DNA from: Candidatus Proelusimicrobium volucris
GTDB taxonomy: Bacteria; Elusimicrobiota; Elusimicrobia; Elusimicrobiales; Elusimicrobiaceae
Reading direction: 5' to 3'
Assembly: GCA_944324665.1 (NCBI GenBank)
Contig: CALUXD010000001.1
Location: 434,001-498,000, forward strand
DNA length: 64,000 bases
The position numbers and the translations under genes were made by a program. Positions 21,700 through 32,392 of this stretch are shown in pieces (the stretch's first letter is position 1; every line of letters starts with the position of its first letter). Under the pieces are notes generated by a model. That model was given only the letters and a program-made list of their open reading frames with translations, was not told the DNA's origin and did not search any database.

Positions 21700-21811
21700 T
21701 GAAAAAGATTTCTTGCAGACAATAAGTTAAAATATAGATAATTAAACCATGATTAAAGCAATGGATACAATGACTATAGACCGTTGCTATATTTTACCCA
21801 GGAGTGATAAT

Positions 21812-23728
21812 ATGGACAGATTTGCCATCATAAACCGCATTGGTAATAAATACCATACAGCCAATATAGAAGATGGAGAGTATAGTTATGTCGCTGCGGC
21901 TGGATCCAAAGCCAAGTTAACCAAACTTCTGGGACATGAGTATAAACATTACAAGTTGGATATTCGTTTTGAAAAAGATGATGTGGTTGTTTTAGTAGAA
22001 ACAAAACAGGACTTTACGGAGGATGATGAACCTCAGTTAGAAGCATACTTAGAAGAAGAACGGGCTGTCCATAAAAGCAAAAAAGTAATCTGCATTTTGG
22101 CCAATACGACTAATGATAAAATCAAAGTTTGGCAATCCTCTATAGATGAAGAACATGTTTTGCCCAAAGAGACCGTTTTGGATGAAATGGATCACTATAT
22201 TCACCTGTTTGAACTTAGCAAATCAAATGACCGAGAGAGGGTTCTTAAAAACACCTATAAACTCAATGAAATGCTGCATAAAAAAGATATTGATGAGAAA
22301 CTGCGGAGCCAATTTGTAGGTACGATTTTGTTACATATTAAAAAGTTAATTAATACTTGGGGTTTTCAGTTAATCGGCACAGAAGCTATTAAGAAGATGG
22401 ATGATTACCTTGATAATTTGACCACTGTACAATCCATTCGTAGTGAAATACAAAATACTTTAAATGAATTACTGGATGGATCGGAGAATAAGACGGAAAA
22501 GATAAATCTTCTTCAAAAGAATGTTCTCGGAGACCAAAAAGTTAAGAAGTTAAATAAAGCCGAATGGCAAGAGATTTTTGATACCATACTAACCGATATT
22601 TATAAGTATATTGACACAGAAAGTGATGAGGGCCAAGATATATTAAATCTGTTCTTTATTGCTTTTAATAAATATACGGGTAAAGCTGATAAAAATCAGG
22701 CTTTTACCCCTGACCATATCACGGATTTTATGTGTAAACTGACTGATGTCGACTGCCATAAAAAGGTGTTAGACCCTACTTGTGGCAGTGGTTCTTTTCT
22801 GGTACAGGCTATGGTTAAAGAACTGGCAGATGCCCGTAGAGGTAAAACCGAAAAAGTAGCAAAGGAAGCTATGCGCAAGGTAAAAGAAGAAAATATCTAT
22901 GGTATTGAAGTGGAAGAAAAAGCATATGGCCTTTCTACTACTAATATGTTAATTCACAGTGACGGTAACTCCAACATCATACATGCGAGCTGTTTTGATA
23001 GTGCGGAGTTTATCAAGAAAGCCAATCCAGACATTATCCTCATGAATCCGCCCTATAATGCTAAACCCAAAAGTATACCAGACGCATATAAAAAAAATTG
23101 GGGAAAAGCAAAAGATGGTAAAGAAGATCCAACAAAGGGTTTGGTGTTTATTCATTTTTTGTCAGACGTTATTAAACAGATGAACGAAGAAAATAAAACA
23201 CAAAAAACAGTTAAACTGGCTGTTTTGTTGCCTCTACAATGCGCCATAGGTACAAGCAGTATCATTAGTGAAGAAAAAGCGGCAATGCTGAAGGATAATA
23301 CCTTGGAAGCAGTATTTTCCCTCCCTGGGGAAATGTTTTATCCTGGTTCATCTGTCAATGCTTGTTGTATGCTATTTACGCTCGGGCAGCCGCATATTAA
23401 ACCTAATGGGCAATCTCGCTCTACCTTTTTTGGCTACTGCAAGGATGACGGTTTTGTTAAGAAGAAGAACCTGGGCAGAGTAGAACAATTCGATTCAAAT
23501 GGACATTCTAAATGGGCGGCTATAGAAAAAGAATGGCTGACCTTGTTTGAACAAAAGAAGGCTGTTGACGGTAAATCAGCCGTGCAAGTAGTTAGTGCTG
23601 AGGATGAATGGCTTTGTGAAGCCTATATGAAAACAGACTATACTAAATTGACAGAAGCTGATTTTCAGCAAACTTTAAACAACTATCTGTCTTACTTGGT
23701 AAAGGAAGGCCAAGTTTATGAATCTTAA
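21812..23728 (+). CDS. BcgI-like restriction-modification subunit A (nuclease plus N6-adenine methylase)
   Basis: 638 residues from ATG 21812, chosen because AGGAG lies 7 nt upstream; an in-frame ATG at 21749 has no ribosome-binding site. The N-terminal domain has a PD-(D/E)XK-like pattern, D50 then E63-T-K65 (LDIRFEKDD ... VLVETKQ). A helical linker follows, then the gamma-type methylase with motif I DPTCGSGSF near residue 321 and catalytic NPPY near 411. A fused nuclease and methylase with a separate specificity protein is the BcgI (type IIB/IIG) arrangement, and the size is close to BcgI A. A type I HsdM is the alternative, but no HsdR gene accompanies it. Notably AT-rich, consistent with transfer. 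Confidence 0.82.
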   Translation: MDRFAIINRIGNKYHTANIEDGEYSYVAAAGSKAKLTKLLGHEYKHYKLDIRFEKDDVVVLVETKQDFTEDDEPQLEAYLEEERAVHKSKKVICILANTTNDKIKVWQSSIDEEHVLPKETVLDEMDHYIHLFELSKSNDRERVLKNTYKLNEMLHKKDIDEKLRSQFVGTILLHIKKLINTWGFQLIGTEAIKKMDDYLDNLTTVQSIRSEIQNTLNELLDGSENKTEKINLLQKNVLGDQKVKKLNKAEWQEIFDTILTDIYKYIDTESDEGQDILNLFFIAFNKYTGKADKNQAFTPDHITDFMCKLTDVDCHKKVLDPTCGSGSFLVQAMVKELADARRGKTEKVAKEAMRKVKEENIYGIEVEEKAYGLSTTNMLIHSDGNSNIIHASCFDSAEFIKKANPDIILMNPPYNAKPKSIPDAYKKNWGKAKDGKEDPTKGLVFIHFLSDVIKQMNEENKTQKTVKLAVLLPLQCAIGTSSIISEEKAAMLKDNTLEAVFSLPGEMFYPGSSVNACCMLFTLGQPHIKPNGQSRSTFFGYCKDDGFVKKKNLGRVEQFDSNGHSKWAAIEKEWLTLFEQKKAVDGKSAVQVVSAEDEWLCEAYMKTDYTKLTEADFQQTLNNYLSYLVKEGQVYES

Positions 23729-24842
23729 TAAACAAGATTGGAAGGAATTTAAACTTGAAAAGCTATTTACTATCCGTCGTGGAGATAGAATTGTAAAAGA
23801 TGAGGACTATTTTGCTATTCCGCCTGCTCCAGATTATAAGTACAGAGTCATTACAGCAAGTGCAACTAACAATAGTGTAGATGGTGTTTATAACCAAACA
23901 AACTGTTTGGGTAATTGTTTGATTAGTTGTGGAGAAGCCAACGGGATGTTTACTACTTGGCAGGATGAGCCGTGTTGGGCCTTAGATACGGTGAGGATAT
24001 ATACACCTATTGGCTTTACATTATCTCGCAACCAAGGTTTATATCTCGCCTGTTGTCTGACATTTAATATGTATAGATTTTCTTATGGTAGAAAAGCAAA
24101 GCCTGATAATATGTATTCTTTGGATATTAATTTACCAATTCAACATCATCTAGATGGTACGCCAGTCATTGACCCCAAAAAGGAGTTTAGCAAAGATGGC
24201 TATATCCCCGATTGGCAATTCATGGAAAACTACATCAAATCCTTGCATTACAAACCTTTAACTACTTCCAGGGCTCATGCTCCTAAAAAAGAACTTAATA
24301 TTTCCAAATGGAAAGATTTTGTTGTAGGAGATATATTTAATATCCAGTACGGTATAAATATGGAGCTTAATGCCTGTGAACCTTGCAACATATATGATCA
24401 AGAGGCGGTGGCCTTTGTGGCTAGGACCGCTGAAAACAATGGGGTCTCTGCCTTTGTAAAAAAAGAACAAGGTATGCTACCACAAGCAGCTGGCACGATT
24501 ACCTGTGCTGGCGGTGGATCGGTATTATCTACATTTGTTCAGGCTCATGATTTTTATAGTGGCCGTGATTTATATCTGCTGAACACAAAAGAGAATCTGT
24601 CAGTTAAGACTAAACTTTTTTTAACCACGGTACTATTAAAGAACCAATACAGATATTCTTATGGTAGACAAGCAAATAAAACTTTGCCTACTTTGTTACT
24701 TAAACTTCCTATTCAACATCATTCCGATGGTACGCCCGTCATTGACCCTGAAAAGAAGTACAGCAAGGAAGGTTACATCCCGGACTGGCAATTTATGGAA
24801 GATTATATAAATAGTTTGCCATACAGTGATAAAATCAAATGA
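23718..24842 (+). CDS. BcgI-like specificity subunit (two target-recognition domains)
   Basis: 374 residues, overlapping the methylase gene by 11 bases. It recognises the DNA target for the restriction-modification complex. Two half-sites are clear: WKEFKLEKLFTIRRG opens the first target-recognition domain and WKDFVVGDIFNIQYG the second (near residue 200). Each ends in YRFSYGRKA / YRYSYGRQA followed by a 114-bp repeated segment encoding LPIQHHxDGTPVIDP...GYIPDWQFMExYIxSL. Such repeats form the conserved scaffold helices. Two unequal domains predict a bipartite, asymmetric target. Confidence 0.85.
   Translation: MNLNKQDWKEFKLEKLFTIRRGDRIVKDEDYFAIPPAPDYKYRVITASATNNSVDGVYNQTNCLGNCLISCGEANGMFTTWQDEPCWALDTVRIYTPIGFTLSRNQGLYLACCLTFNMYRFSYGRKAKPDNMYSLDINLPIQHHLDGTPVIDPKKEFSKDGYIPDWQFMENYIKSLHYKPLTTSRAHAPKKELNISKWKDFVVGDIFNIQYGINMELNACEPCNIYDQEAVAFVARTAENNGVSAFVKKEQGMLPQAAGTITCAGGGSVLSTFVQAHDFYSGRDLYLLNTKENLSVKTKLFLTTVLLKNQYRYSYGRQANKTLPTLLLKLPIQHHSDGTPVIDPEKKYSKEGYIPDWQFMEDYINSLPYSDKIK
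24138..24251 (+). repeat. Specificity-gene internal repeat, copy 1
   Basis: A 114-bp segment encoding the conserved LPIQHHLDGTPVIDP...FMENYIKSLHY scaffold; about four fifths of its bases match copy 2 at 24711-24824 in the same frame. Homologous exchange between such copies can swap target domains. Confidence 0.85.
24711..24824 (+). repeat. Specificity-gene internal repeat, copy 2
   Basis: Second in-frame copy of the 114-bp scaffold repeat at 24138-24251, at the 3' end of the specificity gene, 573 bp (191 codons) downstream of copy 1. Confidence 0.85.
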
Positions 24843-24980
24843 AAGTTGATTTTTGAACTTGTAAAATTAAATTTCGGGCAGTTAAATGAAGGGCAAAAGG
24901 ATATAAAGAGACCTTTTGCCATTGCTTTTGGGTCCCAAATGCGCCATAGGTAAAAATATCTGATTGGGGCTGTGTGGCCC

Positions 24981-25012
24981 AAAACAAAAAATCCCCGACG
25001 ATAGCCGGGGAT
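24981..25012 (-). terminator. Minus-strand terminator, second of two
   Basis: Stem ATCCCCG / CGGGGAT (7 bp, 8-nt loop) with an A-run on its left, read as a T-run on the minus strand. It is the second hairpin met by transcripts from gajA-gajB. Confidence 0.75.
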
Positions 25013-25032
25013 AAATAGGCCAAAATACAATT

Positions 25033-25060
25033 AAAAAATCCCGCCGAAGGTTCGACGGGA
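25033..25060 (-). terminator. Minus-strand terminator after gajB, first of two
   Basis: Hairpin at 25039-25060 (TCCCG and CGAA arms pairing with TTCG and CGGGA, one mismatch) followed on the minus strand by six T. It ends the gajA-gajB transcript. Confidence 0.8.
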
Positions 25061-25104
25061 AAATAAATGGGGTACTGTGGTCAATGCTTTTTATAATTTT
25101 TTAG

Positions 25105-26184
25105 TTAATCCATAAAGTATTCTTTTATTTCAGGAATTGTAACGTTAACATCTGTCACGAATGTTACGCTATATTTTGCTCTAGTAATAGCAACATAAAA
25201 TTTGGCAAGAGATTTCGTAATTTTTTGTTTATTATTGGAAGATAAATAATGATTTATTAACGTATTAGGTATTATTACCACCCTATCTCTGGTAATTCCT
25301 TTTACTGCTCCAAAATTCATAGTAGGGAGGCCCATTGCCTTGGGTTTTGATCTTTTGTCATAAATTAAAATTTGTGGCTTATATTTGTTGTAATACGCCT
25401 GTAGAAGGTTCGGTTTTATATAAAAAAGCCCCAAATGCTTATTGCTTTCTTGATTTTTAGAAATAGTGGAAGGAAGGTTAGGATATAAAGAATCGGCAAA
25501 CTTACAAATGGCTTCTGTACACCTATAGCACTCTCTTTGTTCTACTAATTTCCCCCAACCGTTGTTTTCCCATTCTTTAAACCACTGATACAGAGAAGTT
25601 TTTGTCTTATGTTTTGGAGAATGATGTGTTTTGTAAGTGGATTGCCTTCCATCTCCTACAAGTGTAATTTCTATATGGGATTGAAGCATTAATTCAATTA
25701 GCTCAAAGTCATACCCCGCTAAATCTTGGGCCTCATCAATAAAAATCTTACTAAAACATTTCTCTAGTCTTTTGATATAACAATTATTTCCTCTTTTATT
25801 AGCAACATAAGAAAACTTTGCTATTTTATCACTATAGATAGCTTTTTTATCTAGATTTAAATAATGATTGCTGTCTTTTTCGCGCGTATAAAGGGCCGAA
25901 ATGCCATGAACATAATGCATTTCCATAATTTTATCTTCTGAGTATATATAGTTTTGAAAAGGCCGAACCATATCTGACAGAAGAAAAGAGAACCAAGATT
26001 GAATAGTAATATTATTAGGAACTACCCCATTGAGATGTATGAAAATATTTTTGATATTGTTAATATTTTCGAGTGTAAAGGTAGTAATAAGTATATTTTT
26101 ATTTTTTTCCTCAAGAGCTTTTTTAACTAAAGTCGTTGTTTTTCCACTTCCGGCAGAAGCAAAAATAAATGTATTAGAGTTCAT
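25105..26184 (-). CDS. gajB: UvrD-like helicase of a Gabija-type pair (GajB)
   Basis: 359 residues. Superfamily 1 helicase motifs are in order: Walker A ASAGSGKT (9-16), motif II IFIDEAQDL (147-155), motif III LVGDGRQSTY (about 175-184), motif V NFGAVKGITRDRVVIIPN, and motif VI FYVAITRAKYSVTFV near the C-terminus. It overlaps gajA by 11 bases. In Gabija, GajB senses DNA ends or nucleotide depletion and works with GajA against phage. At 359 residues it is clearly shorter than well-studied GajB proteins (near 500), so the insertion domains are reduced. Gene pairing makes Gabija the best call. Confidence 0.85.
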   Translation of the reverse strand: MNSNTFIFASAGSGKTTTLVKKALEEKNKNILITTFTLENINNIKNIFIHLNGVVPNNITIQSWFSFLLSDMVRPFQNYIYSEDKIMEMHYVHGISALYTREKDSNHYLNLDKKAIYSDKIAKFSYVANKRGNNCYIKRLEKCFSKIFIDEAQDLAGYDFELIELMLQSHIEITLVGDGRQSTYKTHHSPKHKTKTSLYQWFKEWENNGWGKLVEQRECYRCTEAICKFADSLYPNLPSTISKNQESNKHLGLFYIKPNLLQAYYNKYKPQILIYDKRSKPKAMGLPTMNFGAVKGITRDRVVIIPNTLINHYLSSNNKQKITKSLAKFYVAITRAKYSVTFVTDVNVTIPEIKEYFMD

Positions 26185-27784
26185 TCACTACCTCTTGAAT
26201 ATAATCCGGTATTACAAAAGGAATATCCGTATCAAATAAAGACAAGGCACATTTTGTTTTGTTCATTTGCATATATTTTGCCAGTTCTGCTTTAGTTTGC
26301 TCCTTTCTATTTAAAATTTTATTTAAGGTACTTAGTTCGTTGCAGTCTACGATACAAGGCTCTAGAGTATTATTGTGTGGATTTTTATGATAACAAATTT
26401 TAATTGTAGAATTTTTTTCATCTAAATATTCTTGATATTTCTTCTGTAGACCATCGACATTTCCATCGTTATCTGTAATGACAAAAACAGTCTTTTTTAA
26501 TAATTTAGCTATTTCTAAAAATCGTTTAAAAGCAAGACCTACCGACATAATATCAATCCCTTTATCTAGCGGTTGCATATGATATTTTTGCATATATGCC
26601 TTTTTGACAATAAGTTCATCGGAAGGCCCTTCTACTAGAATTATTGTGTTAGATAATACGAGTCGTAGAGTATCAAAGCCAGGAAGCTTTCTGAAAAAAT
26701 CTATTGTTTCTTCGGGCAAATCAGACATAGTAACAGCATTATCCTTGTTTAATAATATAGTATTCTTTAATCCCACAGTATTCATAATAAAAGAACTGTG
26801 CGTACTAATAAATAATTGGTTGCTATTACAGTTGCTAGCAATGTGATGGACAAGTTTATTCATATTACTGAATGAAAGATTGGTTTCAGGCTCTTCTAAA
26901 AGGATGATGTGATTCTCTTCCTTGCAACCTTGTACAACCAATTTTGTTTTAATTGCATTTTGTTCTCCCTTGCCTATATTTTTAAAAGGGATATCATTTA
27001 AATAAAAGGTAAGGTTTGTTTCCCAAGTACTTTTGTTGGAAATATCTACAGATACACTGAGATTTTTATCTGTAATATCAGAACTGGATGATTGTAAGGT
27101 TTCATTGATTTTCTTAATGGCATCTTCGGTCGAAAAAGATTCTTTCAAGGTTCTATAGGTTAAATTTAGTTGAGCAGTTTCTTCCCTAGATAAAGAAGTC
27201 GAAAGAATTTCGTATAGATGTTTATCTTGAGTATTGTTATAGCGGGATTCTGTGCAGTTTAAAAAAGTACTCTGACAAGGAATCTTGGTTATTGTTAATG
27301 GGTTATTAGCAAACGAGGACCAATCATAAGTATAAAATTCAGCAGGAATGGTTTTTACTTTGGAAGGGTCTTTTATATATTCTTTATATTGCCTACTATA
27401 TTGATTATCAAAAAAAATACGCAAGAATAATCCTAGTCTGTCCTCATTCTTTGTGTTATTGTTTCCCCGAAGTCGATTTAAGTCTTGATTTTCGTCCTTA
27501 GCGAAGTAGAGCTCAATTAGAATTTCTGGAAGAGGTGCGTTAGAATTAGTTTGCAATTGCGCAATATAACTATCTACAACTTCTTTATTAAATAAATAAG
27601 GAGAAATTCCAAATCGGAGGGATTGATAATTTATCTGTAATGACAGCGCGAGGTGTATTGCTTCTAATAGGGTCGTCTTTCCTGCCTCATTATTGCCAAC
27701 GATTATATTGATATCAGAGTTGATTGGCAAATCTAATTCTTTAAAAACTTTATAATTTTTGATGAGGACTCTTTGAATTTTCAT
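26174..27784 (-). CDS. gajA: OLD-family ATPase/TOPRIM nuclease of a Gabija-type pair (GajA)
   Basis: 536 residues. The N-terminal ABC-type ATPase has Walker A GNNEAGKT (residues 30-37), a signature region near GKGEQNAIKTKLVVQG (271-286) and Walker B HIILLEEPET (292-301). The C-terminal TOPRIM nuclease has the glutamate in VEGPSDE (E385) and the D-x-D pair in VITDNDG (438-440). This ATPase-TOPRIM protein followed by a UvrD-like helicase is the Gabija (class 2 OLD) arrangement, in which GajA nicks DNA when nucleotide pools fall during infection. AT-rich, and on the opposite strand to the rest of the island, so probably acquired as its own module. No clear ribosome-binding site. Confidence 0.88.
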   Translation of the reverse strand: MKIQRVLIKNYKVFKELDLPINSDINIIVGNNEAGKTTLLEAIHLALSLQINYQSLRFGISPYLFNKEVVDSYIAQLQTNSNAPLPEILIELYFAKDENQDLNRLRGNNNTKNEDRLGLFLRIFFDNQYSRQYKEYIKDPSKVKTIPAEFYTYDWSSFANNPLTITKIPCQSTFLNCTESRYNNTQDKHLYEILSTSLSREETAQLNLTYRTLKESFSTEDAIKKINETLQSSSSDITDKNLSVSVDISNKSTWETNLTFYLNDIPFKNIGKGEQNAIKTKLVVQGCKEENHIILLEEPETNLSFSNMNKLVHHIASNCNSNQLFISTHSSFIMNTVGLKNTILLNKDNAVTMSDLPEETIDFFRKLPGFDTLRLVLSNTIILVEGPSDELIVKKAYMQKYHMQPLDKGIDIMSVGLAFKRFLEIAKLLKKTVFVITDNDGNVDGLQKKYQEYLDEKNSTIKICYHKNPHNNTLEPCIVDCNELSTLNKILNRKEQTKAELAKYMQMNKTKCALSLFDTDIPFVIPDYIQEVVNEL

Positions 27785-28080
27785 GATTTATCTCTTTTGG
27801 CTGTATATTGGTCAGTTAAATCTAATCTAAAAAGCTTATAATAAATATATTATATCTTTGAGTGTGCTTGTTTTCCAATTATATTGTGATGCCATCTTAT
27901 ATTACGAAGTATGCTGAATGTAGGATGGGATATTTTTTACCAAATTTGGGCTAAAATGGTATATTATTTATAGGAAATAATTGTATTTTCTATTATATAT
28001 CTTATTTATAAGTTATTTAATTTCGAAGGAGTATTTGTCTGGCTTTTAAGCCGTTTTGACGACTTAGACACAATTTGAGT
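27785..28080. other. AT-rich divergent gap between gajA and the structured RNA
   Basis: About 300 bp with no open frame worth reporting. It should hold the gajA promoter (minus) and the promoter of the RNA (plus). Many TATAAT-like hexamers occur, too many to choose one. TACCA (27940-27944) and TGGTA (27959-27963) can form a weak hairpin. Near the right end, TTAGACACA (28064-28072) recurs at 28160-28168 inside the RNA. Confidence 0.5.
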
Positions 28081-28284
28081 CTGTTTTTGGAACCGCATGA
28101 GGAATGCGGTGCGCTTTTGGGATACCAAAGGCTCAATCGTAGTCCAAAAACAGCCGAGTTTAGACACAGAGTAAGCGGCCTAATTACCCGCTTGTTCTGT
28201 GTCGAATGTTTCCTGCCCTCCGGGGCGGGAAACTGCGGCTGTTTATATTTGGGTTACTACGATTGGCTCGGATATAACAGCCGC
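28081..28284 (+). ncRNA. Compact structured RNA with six helices and a pseudoknot (family not identified)
   Basis: Helices: P1 28081-28091/28143-28153 (11 bp, perfect); P2 28092-28098/28104-28110 (7 bp); P3 28113-28120/28125-28132 (8 bp); P4 28163-28178/28188-28203 (16 bp); P5 28208-28218/28223-28233 (11 bp, closed by a UCCG tetraloop of the UNCG type); P6 28235-28248/28272-28284 (13 bp, one bulge). P1-P3 form a three-way junction. The strand left between P3 and P1 (28134-28142) is perfectly complementary to the P6 loop (28257-28265), giving a 9-bp pseudoknot. Four helix pairs are G-U in plus-strand RNA but would be A-C on the minus strand, so the plus strand is transcribed. Layout recalls IscB omega (HEARO) RNA, but no iscB is present. 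A cis-regulatory leader of the next gene is the other main option. Confidence 0.85.
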
Positions 28285-28351
28285 CATTTTTTATATCCTT
28301 TCCCGTTTCCTCGGTTCCGCTTTACAGATTATCTTCTAAAAGGAGCGTATG

Positions 28352-29158
28352 ATGAACTTAGGAATCCGGGTAGATACCCGCATTAAAGAAAACCTTAAGA
28401 AGTATCAAAAACAATTATTGCGCTTACAAGAGTTAGATGCTAAAGAGGCCCCTACCGAAAAAATAGCAATGGATATGCTTTGCGATGTGTTCGGCTACGA
28501 TTTGGAGCATGTTTTCGGCCAATACGGTAATAACGGGCGTTCTTGCGATGCCGTTATTAAAGACGATAAGAAAGTCTTTTATGTGTTTGAATGCAAGCGA
28601 ATAGGAACGGATAAGAAAGACTTTAACAAGCACATCCGCCAAGTGATAGAGTATTGCGCCACCCTGAATGTTCCTTGGGGTATTTTAACAAACGGGGCTT
28701 ATTGGCAGTTGTACTATGTGGATATTAAAGCCCAACCTGTAACTGCGGAATTAATTTGGGATTTTGATGTATTGGAATTAAGCCACCGCCAAGCGGCCCA
28801 TCGTGAACTATTGCTCCCTTTATGCCGGGAAGCCATTGCTAAACGCTTAAAAGAGGGTATTTTAGAAGAAAAACGGGCCTTGAGTGTGGAAAATATAGCC
28901 CGCGTCTTGTTTAGCAACGAAGTATTAAAAGCTATTAGCGGCGTTTTAAGGCGCAAAGTGGGGGCGCGCGTGGATGTGGATACCCTGGAAGCCAAAATCC
29001 GCGAATTATGCCCGAATTTGCCCGAAAATATACGGGGCTTTCGCGCGCCTAAGAAGAAAGACAAGCCCGCTCAGCCCGAAATTAAAGTCGTTACGATGGC
29101 TAAAGAGGGCGCAAACGAGGCCTTAAATGGGGAAAATCCTACGGGGGAAACAAAATGA
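28352..29158 (+). CDS. Orphan PD-(D/E)XK protein, HsdR N-terminal-like
   Basis: 268 residues from the second of two adjacent ATGs, which has AAAGGAG at 28339-28345 with proper spacing. The N-terminal half matches the type I restriction HsdR_N-type domain: TEKIAMDMLCDVFGYDLE, then a PD-(D/E)XK-like core with D66 (SCDAVIK) and E80-C-K82 (VFECKR), followed by NKHIRQVIEYCATLNVPWGILTNG. The C-terminal 100 residues are helical and polar, with no helicase domain. So it is a stand-alone nuclease-like protein, not a truncated HsdR in any obvious way. It lies 67 bp after the structured RNA and overlaps the next gene (ATGA). Function unknown. Confidence 0.75.
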   Translation: MNLGIRVDTRIKENLKKYQKQLLRLQELDAKEAPTEKIAMDMLCDVFGYDLEHVFGQYGNNGRSCDAVIKDDKKVFYVFECKRIGTDKKDFNKHIRQVIEYCATLNVPWGILTNGAYWQLYYVDIKAQPVTAELIWDFDVLELSHRQAAHRELLLPLCREAIAKRLKEGILEEKRALSVENIARVLFSNEVLKAISGVLRRKVGARVDVDTLEAKIRELCPNLPENIRGFRAPKKKDKPAQPEIKVVTMAKEGANEALNGENPTGETK

Positions 29159-29610
29159 AAAAGACGCTTATCGTTTTATGTGTATGTTTATTAAGCGAGG
29201 TTGCGTATGGCTTTGATGCGGTTAAAAACAGTGATGGTACTTGGACTATTTCCGGGCCGGAAGTAACATCCCGTACCTTTGGCAAAACGACCTATTATTG
29301 CATTAACCGGGGAGGCGCAGAGCAATGTTATACAGCGGCTGAGCTAACAGCGGATTTAGACAAGCGTTTGGAGCAGGGAAACCCGGACATAAAACCTGTT
29401 TCGGCTTCTGAAGCAGAACTTAAAGCTTCTTCCGCTACTACCCAAGAACAGACCTTTAGGAATTATATGGATACCACCTATCAGCAAGGCGTGCCTATTC
29501 CCAGAGCAGAGGATAATCAGCCCAAAGAAACCTCAGAAACCCCAAAAGAGTCAAAGAGTTTCTTGAAAAAACTGAGCGATTTCTTATCCTCTCTACTATT
29601 CTTTTTGTAA
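29155..29610 (+). CDS. Small secreted protein of unknown function
   Basis: 151 residues with a signal peptide (KTLIVLCVCLLSEVAYG). Two cysteines follow (YYCINRGGAEQC), then a polar region rich in Glu, Thr, Ser and Pro, and a hydrophobic C-terminal tail (FLSSLLFFL) preceded by lysines. Its start overlaps the stop of the nuclease-like gene by 4 bases, so the two are co-translated, an unexpected pairing of a cytoplasmic nuclease-like and an exported protein. Not recognised. Confidence 0.65.
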   Translation: MKKTLIVLCVCLLSEVAYGFDAVKNSDGTWTISGPEVTSRTFGKTTYYCINRGGAEQCYTAAELTADLDKRLEQGNPDIKPVSASEAELKASSATTQEQTFRNYMDTTYQQGVPIPRAEDNQPKETSETPKESKSFLKKLSDFLSSLLFFL

Positions 29611-29613
29611 TGC

Positions 29614-29642
29614 AAAGGCCGGCCTCAAAGTCGGCCTTTTAC
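29614..29642 (+). terminator. Rho-independent terminator after the 29155-29610 gene
   Basis: AAAGGCCG / CGGCCTTT, 8-bp stem, 10-nt loop, then TTTACTTTG. It ends the RNA-nuclease-secreted protein transcript. Confidence 0.8.
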
Positions 29643-29683
29643 TTTGTTAGAATGAGGGATATAACTAACAAAGGATGATAATT

Positions 29684-30520
29684 ATGGAAATTAAATTTGC
29701 GTTGTGGCAATACAAAAAAGATGAGTTGGGGGAATTAAAGCCCACTAATCCCATTGTGGTAAGTACGTGGGAGGAGGTGCGGGCAAAAGCGAAGGAAGGA
29801 TATAGATTGCAGGGGCTGACATATCCCGTTTTCCAAATGTTTAAAGCATTGAAATATAACGAGTATTTCCTAAAGGAACGGGAGCGATTTAGAAAAGAGT
29901 TTCAAATTCCGGCGCGGGTTAGTTTTAAAAAATATTTAGAGAATTCACGCTATTTTGCCAAAGATAAAAAGATAACAAAAAAGAACTTTATCACGAGTCC
30001 CTTTTTTAAGGAAATTTGTTTCTTGGGGAAAGTTGTGCAAAACTACCGGATGCCAAACCATATAAAGGAACTGCTGAGAGATTTATTTTATACGGGCGTT
30101 GTGCGTTTTATCCCGCCGTTTGGCGGAGATGTGCGTATTGTAATTTATCCTAAACAGCGTTGGTTACATCCTAAGGAAGTTCGTTTGGAGATAACCTCTC
30201 CCCATATGACAAAAAATGCTTTAAAAAAGTTTATTGATTTGCATTGGGAAATGTTGCAACCCTATATTTTGGCATTACCAGCGGAGAATAATCTGTTAAT
30301 TACCGAGCATGACTTGGAAGTTATGCGCTTGCGAAAAGAAAATAAAACGATTTCAAATGTAGCTACTGAAATGTATTTAGCTATGAATCCCGGTGATGTG
30401 CGTTACGGGAAAGAAAAAGAAGTCAAGGAAGCGACAGTTAAAACGGCTTATTTTAGAGCCAAAGAAAAAATAGATGAGTTATTTCGTCCCGTCGGTCAAA
30501 AGAAGAAAAAGGTGCGCTGA
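29684..30520 (+). CDS. Unknown island protein with possible C-terminal helix-turn-helix
   Basis: 278 residues from the ATG at 29684, which has AAGGA 8 nt upstream; an earlier ATG at 29675 sits directly on that site. Basic, soluble protein. The last 65 residues (HDLEVMRLRKENKTISNVATEM ... VKTAYFRAKEKIDELF, in two parts) look like a helix-turn-helix with a positively charged tail (KKKKVR). The middle (residues about 130-175) has beta segments (GGDVRIVIYPKQRW, KEVRLEITSP). No family recognised. A regulator or replication/mobilisation helper of the element would fit the position (inference). Confidence 0.65.
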   Translation: MEIKFALWQYKKDELGELKPTNPIVVSTWEEVRAKAKEGYRLQGLTYPVFQMFKALKYNEYFLKERERFRKEFQIPARVSFKKYLENSRYFAKDKKITKKNFITSPFFKEICFLGKVVQNYRMPNHIKELLRDLFYTGVVRFIPPFGGDVRIVIYPKQRWLHPKEVRLEITSPHMTKNALKKFIDLHWEMLQPYILALPAENNLLITEHDLEVMRLRKENKTISNVATEMYLAMNPGDVRYGKEKEVKEATVKTAYFRAKEKIDELFRPVGQKKKKVR

Positions 30521-30600
30521 TAAACTTGATTTTATCGTTTCCGGGGTTTGTGTAATCTTAGGAGACGAAGTAGTCTCTTTCTTTATTCTATCCTTTGTCT

Positions 30601-30804
30601 ATGAAGCACTTGGGCAAAGGATTTTTTATTACAGCGCAAGATGTCCCGGCCGACTTTATTAAAGAAACACAAAAGTTGGTCGCGGACAGCTGCGGGCGCA
30701 AAATAACCGCCGCGCAAGCGTTGCAAATAATTCAATCTTGGCTGGAATTTGCGGATATATTAGTTCGCTTAAACCAGCTGTCCGGCGCGTCAAATAAACC
30801 ATAA
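30601..30804 (+). CDS. 67-residue protein directly before the recombinase
   Basis: MKHLGKGFFITAQDVPADFI ..., with a helical C-terminal half (KITAAQALQIIQSWLEFADILVRLNQL in two parts). It lies 13 bp before the recombinase and probably shares its transcript. It has no ribosome-binding site, but TATCCT ends 6 nt before its ATG. Small acidic or helical partners encoded beside large serine recombinases include directionality factors; that role is only a suggestion here. Not recognised. Confidence 0.5.
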   Translation: MKHLGKGFFITAQDVPADFIKETQKLVADSCGRKITAAQALQIIQSWLEFADILVRLNQLSGASNKP

Positions 30805-30817
30805 AGGAGTAAAGGAA

Positions 30818-32314
30818 ATGAATAAGACTGTGATTTATTTAAGAGTCTCTAGTAAAGGACAGGAAGAAAACGGCTATTCTCTGGACGCACAGGAAAAGTT
30901 GGCCCGGGAATATGCCGCCAAGAAAGGATTAGAGGTGGTCAAAATATGGAAAGGGGCGGAATCAGCTTGGGGAAAGATTGAAAGAACCAATTTTTCTGAG
31001 ATGCTGGCTTTTATGAAAAAGCATCACGAGGTCAGGCATATTATTTTTGATGTGCTAGACCGTATGACCCGCAATGATGTGGATAAACTTAAGATTGCCC
31101 AATTAGTAAAGCAATATGATAAAGTGGTTCATTTTTCCCGCGATAATAAGATGTACAGCCGGGAGTCCAGCTCCGACGAGGAATTTATGATGGATGTGCA
31201 GGTTGCCGTTGCCAAAAAATTATCCAATGACATTTCCCGCAAAACCACAATGGGTATGACAGAAAAGGCCGAACAGGGGATTTATCCGGCCCGCGCGCCG
31301 ATTGGCTACCTAAACAACCACCGCACAAGCAAAATTGATGTTGACCCGGAACGAGCCCCTTTTGTAAAACGCTTGTTTGAAATGGCGGCCAGCGGGGAAT
31401 ATTCTTTGCAAATGATAGAGGATATCCTGTATGCGGAGGGGTTAAGGGAGCGGTTGCATAATGGCAGAGTGCGTAAAAGTACCCTGTATCGGGTACTTCA
31501 CAACCCGATGTATTATGGTACTTTCCGTTGGGGTAAAAAACTCTACTCGGGTATTCACGAACCGCTCATTACAAAAGACTTATTCGAGAGGGCCAATAAG
31601 GCCCTCTCCCTTTTTGAGCGTCCCCGTGTTACTACCCGCAATTATCCTTTTTCTAATCTGCTTCATTGCAAAGATTGCGGCTGTTCTATTGTGGGGGATT
31701 TTGCCAAAAAGAAATATATGTATTACCGCTGTTCATTTTCCAAAGGGCAACATCCGCACGAAAAATACATTCGGGAACATCAGCTGGATGAGGCGTTTGC
31801 GGCCTTGATAGATGCTATTAGTTTAAAGCCGGGAGTAGTGTCGTGGCTACAAAAAGCCATAGAAATACGCTTAAAACACTTGGAAAAGGCCCAAAACAAG
31901 GCGACGGGCGGGCTGAAAGCGGAACTAAGCAAAAAGCAAACGGAATTAGAACGCTTATATGACGAGGGCTGGGAAAAGGGCTATCCGGCGGAGTTTATAA
32001 AACGCACGGAAGAACGCTTAAAAACGGCTATTGCCGAACTTACACAGCAAATACAAGCCCAAACTATACAGCTGGACGCCGTACGGCAAAAAAGCACAGA
32101 TATTTTAAAGTTGGTATGTAATATGGGTACTATCTATCGCGCGGCTCCGCTTTCAGAAAAAAAGCCTCTTTTGCGCCATATAGCCAGCGATTTTGTATTG
32201 GACGGACACAAAATTTACCCAAAATACCGCGAACCGTTCAATATTTTTGCGCAAGGAAATAAAAAATGCTTAGAAATTAAGGGAAAATCCCCTAAAAGTT
32301 CTAAGCATTTAATA

Positions 32315-32326
<12 letters not shown>
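30818..32326 (+). CDS. Large serine recombinase (integrase of the island)
   Basis: 502 residues. The resolvase domain starts with YLRVSSKGQ, with the catalytic serine at residue 11, followed by LDRMTRND and the helix E region. The recombinase domain follows (residues about 170-290: APIGYLNN, VLHNPMYYGTFRWG). A zinc ribbon comes next (LHCKDCGCSIVGD ... YYRCS), then a coiled coil (about 350-440). The last 21 codons overlap the terminator and 3' end of tRNA-His on the opposite strand, so the C-terminus is encoded by the target junction. A strong AAAGGAG precedes the ATG. It presumably integrates and excises the island. Confidence 0.94.
32257..32310 (-). terminator. tRNA-His terminator, lying inside the recombinase 3' end
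   Basis: AAATGCTTAGAA (32264-32275) and TTCTAAGCATTT (32299-32310) are perfect 12-bp arms, with a second inner stem (AGGG/CCCT). On the minus strand a T-rich tract follows. It terminates tRNA-His while also coding for recombinase residues on the plus strand. Confidence 0.8.

Positions 32327-32392
<66 letters not shown>

Follow-up and report, generated by a model that had tools for sequence, protein, structure and literature searches.

Locus-private complementary segments in an undescribed leader-RNA family upstream of pilin and other surface genes in gut Elusimicrobia

Introduction

Transcription attenuators, such as those of the trp/his type and the expression platforms of riboswitches, are 5' leaders with a terminator before the gene, built on the pairings 1:2 and 3:4 and a possible conserved 2:3 pairing. 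The leader RNA described here shares this layout. In contrast to those attenuators, it shows no sign of a leader peptide and has no known ligand, and its leader pairs with the terminator loop through two hypervariable, private segments, here called keys, in more than 100 copies in one genome. In the antisense systems of copy number and incompatibility, ColE1 RNA I/RNA II and IncFII CopA/CopT, RNA-RNA recognition takes its specificity from short loops, and changed loops create new specificities that are blind to one another. The likeness to our RNA lies in such short loop sequences setting pairing specificity; however, the sense and antisense RNAs of these systems come from overlapping genes, whereas here both partners lie in one RNA that leads pilin and other genes. 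IscB omega RNAs (HEARO) are also multi-helix RNAs 5' of a nuclease gene with many copies. Unlike them, the RNA here has no iscB and no guide and is not nuclease-specific.

Pili, surface proteins, capsule and DNA methyltransferases are gene classes that phase-vary in other bacteria and are often stochastically expressed. Phase-variable promoters with homopolymer tracts have been described (PMC5084427, PMC6389960). The same classes (pili, surface, capsule and DNA methyltransferase genes) are found here, and one genome, G045, has a second class of pilin genes with a T-tract. In contrast to those promoters, RNA-led genes are mostly without a tract and their variable part is a complementary RNA pair. 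In Clostridioides difficile, c-di-GMP riboswitches lie upstream of type IV pilus genes (PMC6200980). These are likewise structured leaders on pilus genes, but our RNA is unrelated to them (no Rfam match), with one leader per pilin and private keys. To our knowledge, no described leader RNA family has a different, strictly Watson-Crick, self-complementary and fastest-evolving key in every copy of a genome, and none is described in the papers searched.

Results

A multi-helix RNA ending in an intrinsic terminator

The window is a stretch of 64,000 nucleotides from Candidatus Proelusimicrobium volucris. An earlier note, made from its letters alone, had placed a multi-helix RNA at 28060-28300 and a PD-(D/E)XK protein behind it. 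Both proved real. The + strand at ~28040-28293 is predicted to fold into a multi-helix RNA of -130 kcal/mol compared to -85 +/- 5 for shuffles (z = -9.2), and none of 100 shuffles folded as well; homologous copies exist, hundreds of them in relatives, with strong covariation. Helix P1 starts at 28081, as had been claimed. The protein matched Pfam HSDR_N_2 (E = 6.7e-8) and had no RuvC or HNH match. Two features had been overlooked: P4, with strands at 28236-28255 and 28266-28283 and a U-tract at 28287-28292, forms an intrinsic terminator, and 10 nt in the P1 multiloop are complementary to the P4 apical loop. With the Rfam 15 covariance models at gathering score, the sole match in the window was tRNA-His, and a relaxed scan gave a best E of 0.16, to an unrelated family. 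The RNA is one copy of an undescribed leader-RNA family in gut Elusimicrobia that is absent from Rfam. Its parts, in window coordinates, are:

28047-28067, +: 5' hairpin AAGCC...GACTT (AAGCC...GGCTT in relatives), from an alignment of 31 copies and G045 upstream regions
28081-28091, +: strand 1, CTGTTTTTGGA, 5' arm of P1, partner of strand 2; 10/10 pairs in 197/211 copies, strand-swap -0.83 kcal/mol
28092-28110, +: hairpin X, ACCGCAT...ATGCGGT, within P1; helix 3 of the A2/A3 alignments, 99% of cells paired, compensatory changes
28113-28131, +: hairpin Y, TTTTGG...CCAAAG, within P1; helix 4 of A2/A3, 94-97% paired, compensatory changes in all pairs
28134-28143, +: key 1, CAATCGTAGT, hypervariable and locus-private, complementary to key 2
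28144-28156, +: strand 2, CCAAAAACAGCCG, partner of strand 1 (P1) or alternatively of strand 3
28163-28203, +: hairpin P2; helix 8, 94-96% paired, compensatory changes
28208-28233, +: hairpin P3; helix 10 of A3 and helix 9 of A2, 94-97% paired, compensatory changes
28236-28255, +: strand 3, CGGCTGTTTATATTTGGGTT, 5' arm of terminator hairpin P4; 3:4 strand-swap -4.6 kcal/mol
28256-28265, +: key 2, ACTACGATTG, P4 apical loop, complementary to key 1
28266-28283, +: strand 4, GCTCGGATATAACAGCCG, 3' arm of terminator hairpin P4
28284-28293, +: U-tract of the intrinsic terminator; at least 4 T within 8 nt past strand 4 in 179/179 scorable copies, mean 6.3
28349 (or 28352)-29158, +: orphan HSDR_N-type PD-(D/E)XK gene, 269 aa

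The 5' hairpin is missing from many pilin leaders. The HSDR_N gene has its own Shine-Dalgarno sequence (aaaaggagcg).

Distribution of the family

Matches to the RNA were found by blastn in 62 of 199 relatives and with the covariance model R1 in 81 of 150, nearly all of the latter from two genera of one Elusimicrobia family; the genomes compared are mostly metagenome assemblies, and covariance-model E-values are rough. At E <= 0.1, where part of the matches are incomplete, the copy number was 14 in G030, 23 in G042, 52 in G014, 59 in G034 and 130 in G045. For G045, 129 copies were recovered at E <= 1e-7 from sequence covering ~92% of the genome. The window's own genome has two good copies in total, the second at C1:145945-146167 (78% identical), and a weak third (C2:115332-115521, 37 bits).

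A second model, R2, found one divergent copy each in G018 and G023, which belong to a different genus of this family, and in G117, from a different family in the order. These copies are weak (E 1e-4 to 3e-3), and each, read by eye, keeps an 8-10 bp key pair in place. The one in G018, a one-contig genome of 1.6 Mb from a neighbouring genus, lies at L274 (C1:1543527) and has yet another key. The gene behind it is apparently orthologous to the zinc-ribbon gene downstream of copy 2 in the window's genome; this locus is possibly the ancestral site. If G018 is a cultured strain, its divergent copy may give access to the RNA. A blastn search of GenBank phages with the RNA gave no match. Among 67 viral contigs sharing the 15-mer CTGTTTTTGGAACCG, none had a covariance-model match, and we regard them as chance matches, not phage copies.

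Genes behind the RNA

In the first inspected set, most copies are followed, after 30-90 nt, by a gene for a type IV prepilin (FTLIELLVVVLIIGIL) or for a secreted protein. In the 1.7 Mb gut genome G045, a prepilin ORF stands downstream of 121 of the 129 copies (119 by pattern and two by eye) and begins ~40 nt past the RNA. At least 223 pilin-like ORFs were counted in this genome, of which ~105 lack the RNA, exposing an extraordinary pilin repertoire in a poorly studied phylum; no paper on pilins, leaders or phase variation in Elusimicrobia was found in the literature. Restriction-modification and nuclease genes led by the RNA encode an EcoRI-type methylase, a type III methylation subunit, a GmrSD endonuclease and HSDR_N-like proteins. 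Surface and other products are an outer-membrane barrel, a polysaccharide pyruvyl transferase, a sulfatase-fold membrane protein and a DUF4823 lipoprotein-like protein, with further lipoproteins and glycosyltransferase-like ORFs recognised by eye. The HSDR_N gene of the window fits this list of contingency genes.

Many of the G045 pilin genes without the RNA share a promoter-like block, TTGAC-n-T12-GATATT...TATAA. We counted 87 such blocks with a T-tract between the TTGAC-like box and GATATT, 79 of them with exactly 12 T, making these genes a candidate slippage-variable pilin set. At L165, L171 and L173 of this genome, the region upstream of the RNA-led pilin gene also contains a T-tract promoter that points away from it on the opposite strand. 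A homopolymer of at least 8 occurs in only 11 of the 129 RNA-led loci of G045.

Terminator, promoter and alternative folds

A U-rich tract follows strand 4 in every scorable copy (179/179), and the median distance from strand 4 to the start codon is 44 nt. Since an intrinsic terminator closes each copy that could be scored, the RNA is most likely a transcription-attenuating 5' leader; of the options in the earlier note, that of a cis-regulatory leader is the one supported. With promoters called by consensus, TATAAT was found upstream in 99 of 196 leaders compared to 42 expected, and inspection of the window copy revealed no clear promoter. An SD-like motif followed by ATG, the one start codon counted, occurs in just 2 of 196 leaders. 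With no sign of a leader peptide, a ribosome-mediated attenuator of the trp/his type was rejected.

In a strand-swap test on 161 copies, 1:2 gave -0.83 +/- 0.12, 3:4 gave -4.6 +/- 0.3 and key 1:key 2 gave -10.9 +/- 0.2 kcal/mol, and the control pairings 1:3 and 2:4 gave about 0. At the level of sequence, this shows that strands 1 and 2, strands 3 and 4 and above all the two keys are matched to each other in each copy. If the kissing pair is left out, the predicted fold with P1 and P4 comes to within 1.35 +/- 4.4 kcal/mol of the minimum. Strand 3 offers strand 2 a second complementary partner, and a single continuous duplex would result from key 1 plus strand 2 pairing with strand 3 plus key 2; RNAalifold chooses this nested fold of key and 2:3 pairing. 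The 2:3 complementarity is 98-99% paired in helix 7 and 75-87% in helix 6. Its covariation outside the keys is weak (-0.29 +/- 0.13), and 1:4 covariation is absent. The 2:3 pairing is therefore a candidate antiterminator, and the antiterminator half of the scheme rests on conserved complementarity.

Strict pairing and rapid turnover of the keys

The key helix is almost free of non-Watson-Crick pairs. Across its seven central pairs in G045 (894 cells) there were 0 unpaired cells and 2 G-U, with all four Watson-Crick types common, and a mixed set of 101 copies (688 cells), which has 30 loci in common with the G045 set, had 0 unpaired and 0 G-U. P2 and P3 of the same RNAs have roughly 12-15% G-U and some mismatches. 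These figures bear on the possibility that the leader senses a ligand or protein in the manner of a riboswitch, the key helix being just a stem of irrelevant sequence. The conserved multi-helix core and terminator do resemble riboswitches, and c-di-GMP riboswitches lead pilin genes elsewhere (PMC6200980). However, stems that are indifferent to sequence, such as P2 and P3, hold G-U pairs and drift slowly, whereas the key helix holds almost none and has the fastest turnover; moreover, no Rfam family matches. We consider such a sensor rather improbable.

No two of the 110 gapless keys in G045 are the same. With random keys, 0.07 exact duplicates are expected, so the observed privacy is at the random level, and within G045 we saw no avoidance of near-identical keys and instead a slight excess of near-matches. 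For this reason selection for orthogonality is inferred from turnover and not from spacing: random keys would also nearly all differ, which makes turnover the stronger evidence. Key identity is near random even between copies whose remainder is 80-98% identical. At the window's locus, G046 and G071 are 98% alike outside the keys (4/200 other columns differ), and their keys share 2 of 8 letters and differ at 6 of 8, both keys having changed together. Ordinary compensatory drift, passing through G-U or mismatched intermediates, does not predict this joint replacement.

Perfect, private inverted repeats could also be crossover sites of a DNA-level switch, in which inversion of the segment between the keys alters the terminator. 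Privacy would then prevent recombination between loci, and contingency genes often use inversions. However, none of 128 G045 copies scored higher against the inverted than against the native arrangement (the inverted one was worse by a median of 54 bits), and the inverted model had one short match outside native copies. Key replacement is what was observed between the related genomes G046 and G071. An inversion switch is thus very unlikely.

We also looked for the keys elsewhere. In 1.57 Mb of G045, key 10-mers occurred 192 times compared to 216 +/- 22 for shuffled keys, and key 11-mers 16 times compared to 21; near their own element, with 43% of the genome covered, keys had no match. As key k-mers show no excess elsewhere in G045, no guide, target or key library was found. 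The earlier note had offered a stranded omega RNA, with a guide in the ~16-20 nt before 28081, as one option. An omega-type RNA (HEARO/IscB-like), dispersed as an element after loss of its nuclease, would account for the many structured copies scattered over a genome. Against it, pilin, surface, capsule and restriction-modification genes, and never iscB, stand behind the inspected copies, at a fixed distance from the start codon and with a terminator between; the variable segment is internal and self-complementary with no genomic target found, and the region upstream of strand 1 is a hairpin and/or promoter and not guide-like. The probability that we leave to an omega-type origin is negligible.

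One copy, L008:250-470 in G058, has a key 1 (CATTCTGAGT) that does not match its key 2 (the partner of CATTTTCCCT). It looks like a chimera of two key types and lies 250 bp from a contig end, as an assembly artefact or through recombination. Identical 10-nt keys recur between genomes (L054, L041, L063, L042, L056, L062 and L038; e.g. CATTCAGACT, CAGCTCTAAT and CAAGACAAGT), sometimes at loci with different downstream genes, which is rarely expected of random keys. This suggests that leaders moved between loci.

A proposed mechanism

The anatomy, gene context and terminator of the RNA, and the complementarity, privacy and turnover of its keys, are shown by the sequences compared. Our preferred reading, held with moderate confidence, is a cis attenuator whose termination decision would use a pairing that only the RNA of its own locus can make. 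Transcription would start just upstream of the RNA, and the nascent RNA would fold P1 (1:2, enclosing X, Y and key 1), P2 and P3. The polymerase would then meet the terminator hairpin (3:4 and the U-tract) ~40 nt before the start codon. Key 1 could pair with key 2 in the apical loop of the terminator as a pseudoknot. Strand 2 lies directly beside key 1 and strand 3 directly beside key 2, so the key duplex may extend into the 2:3 pairing, destroying the terminator and causing antitermination. Private keys would be addresses that keep more than 100 similar leaders per cell from mutual interference, and each pilin or contingency gene might thereby be switched ON or OFF without regard to the others. 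The gene led in this way in the window would be that of an HSDR_N-type nuclease, carried by a small integrative element. What we infer is that the promoter is used, that the leader attenuates, that 2:3 pairing antiterminates and that the keys serve independence.

A purely intramolecular pairing needs neither privacy nor strictness, so these two properties favour some trans component or trans hazard. In one such scheme, self-recognition would act in trans: a short terminated leader would pair by its keys only with nascent leaders from its own locus. The resulting locus-specific feedback would give each gene a bistable ON/OFF memory, with the key as an RNA self-tag. This would account for private, strictly Watson-Crick, fast-evolving keys; both keys are displayed unpaired in the predicted P1+P4 fold, and the gene set is of a kind often stochastically expressed in other bacteria. 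Pairing in cis is, however, kinetically much favoured, and we regard action in trans as unlikely. A broader claim, which we offer tentatively and would not ourselves expect to hold in full, is that of an addressing system: more than 100 surface and contingency genes would be set ON or OFF, possibly with memory, via locus-specific RNA self-recognition, with no DNA rearrangement or protein regulator making the choice and with keys replaced rapidly in evolution.

If the key sets termination, the cis attenuator would be a new way for a bacterium to run more than 100 paralogous surface genes independently, and the leaders would be ready-made orthogonal RNA switches for synthetic biology.

The nuclease gene as cargo of a small element

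The remaining option of the earlier note was that the PD-(D/E)XK protein is the dedicated partner of the RNA. An RNA-guided or RNA-controlled nuclease would fit the RNA directly upstream of the HSDR_N gene in G000, G046, G071 and the rumen Elusimicrobium MAG RUG12698, and of a distant homologue in G045. These loci include the 97-99% homologues and, in RUG12698, a 77% homologue. However, 121 of 129 G045 copies precede pilins, hundreds of copies lack the protein, G007 keeps the RNA with the HSDR_N gene absent, and most of the distant (~30-35%) homologues are without the RNA. The note had set such a partnership against independent occurrence of RNA and protein in other genomes; independence largely holds, but not at the four loci with 77-100% homologues or before the distant homologue in G045. 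We consider a dedicated partnership most improbable.

Homology of the window to G046, which belongs to another genus, runs from 27945 through tRNA-His at 96%, and homology to G071 and G007 begins at the same left point (27941-27945) and is interrupted. These limits mark a small element of ~4.4 kb, whose contents are the RNA and genes for the HSDR_N protein, for a secreted protein, for a 281-aa protein and for a serine recombinase next to tRNA-His. Since G007 keeps the RNA without the gene and the RUG12698 homologue is also RNA-led, the nuclease is cargo under the leader RNA.

The small integrative element (27945-32320) is 96-97% identical across two genera. A search for a flanking direct repeat of at least 14 bp found none at the element. 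Its serine recombinase (30818-32326) abuts tRNA-His (32315-32391, - strand); it is unusual to find a serine recombinase at a tRNA 3' end. Beside the element lies a variable defence island (21749-27784), with a IIG/type I-like methyltransferase and a specificity subunit at 21749-24842 and Gabija GajB/GajA on the - strand at 25105-27784 (PADLOC E 4.6e-112 and 2.5e-191).
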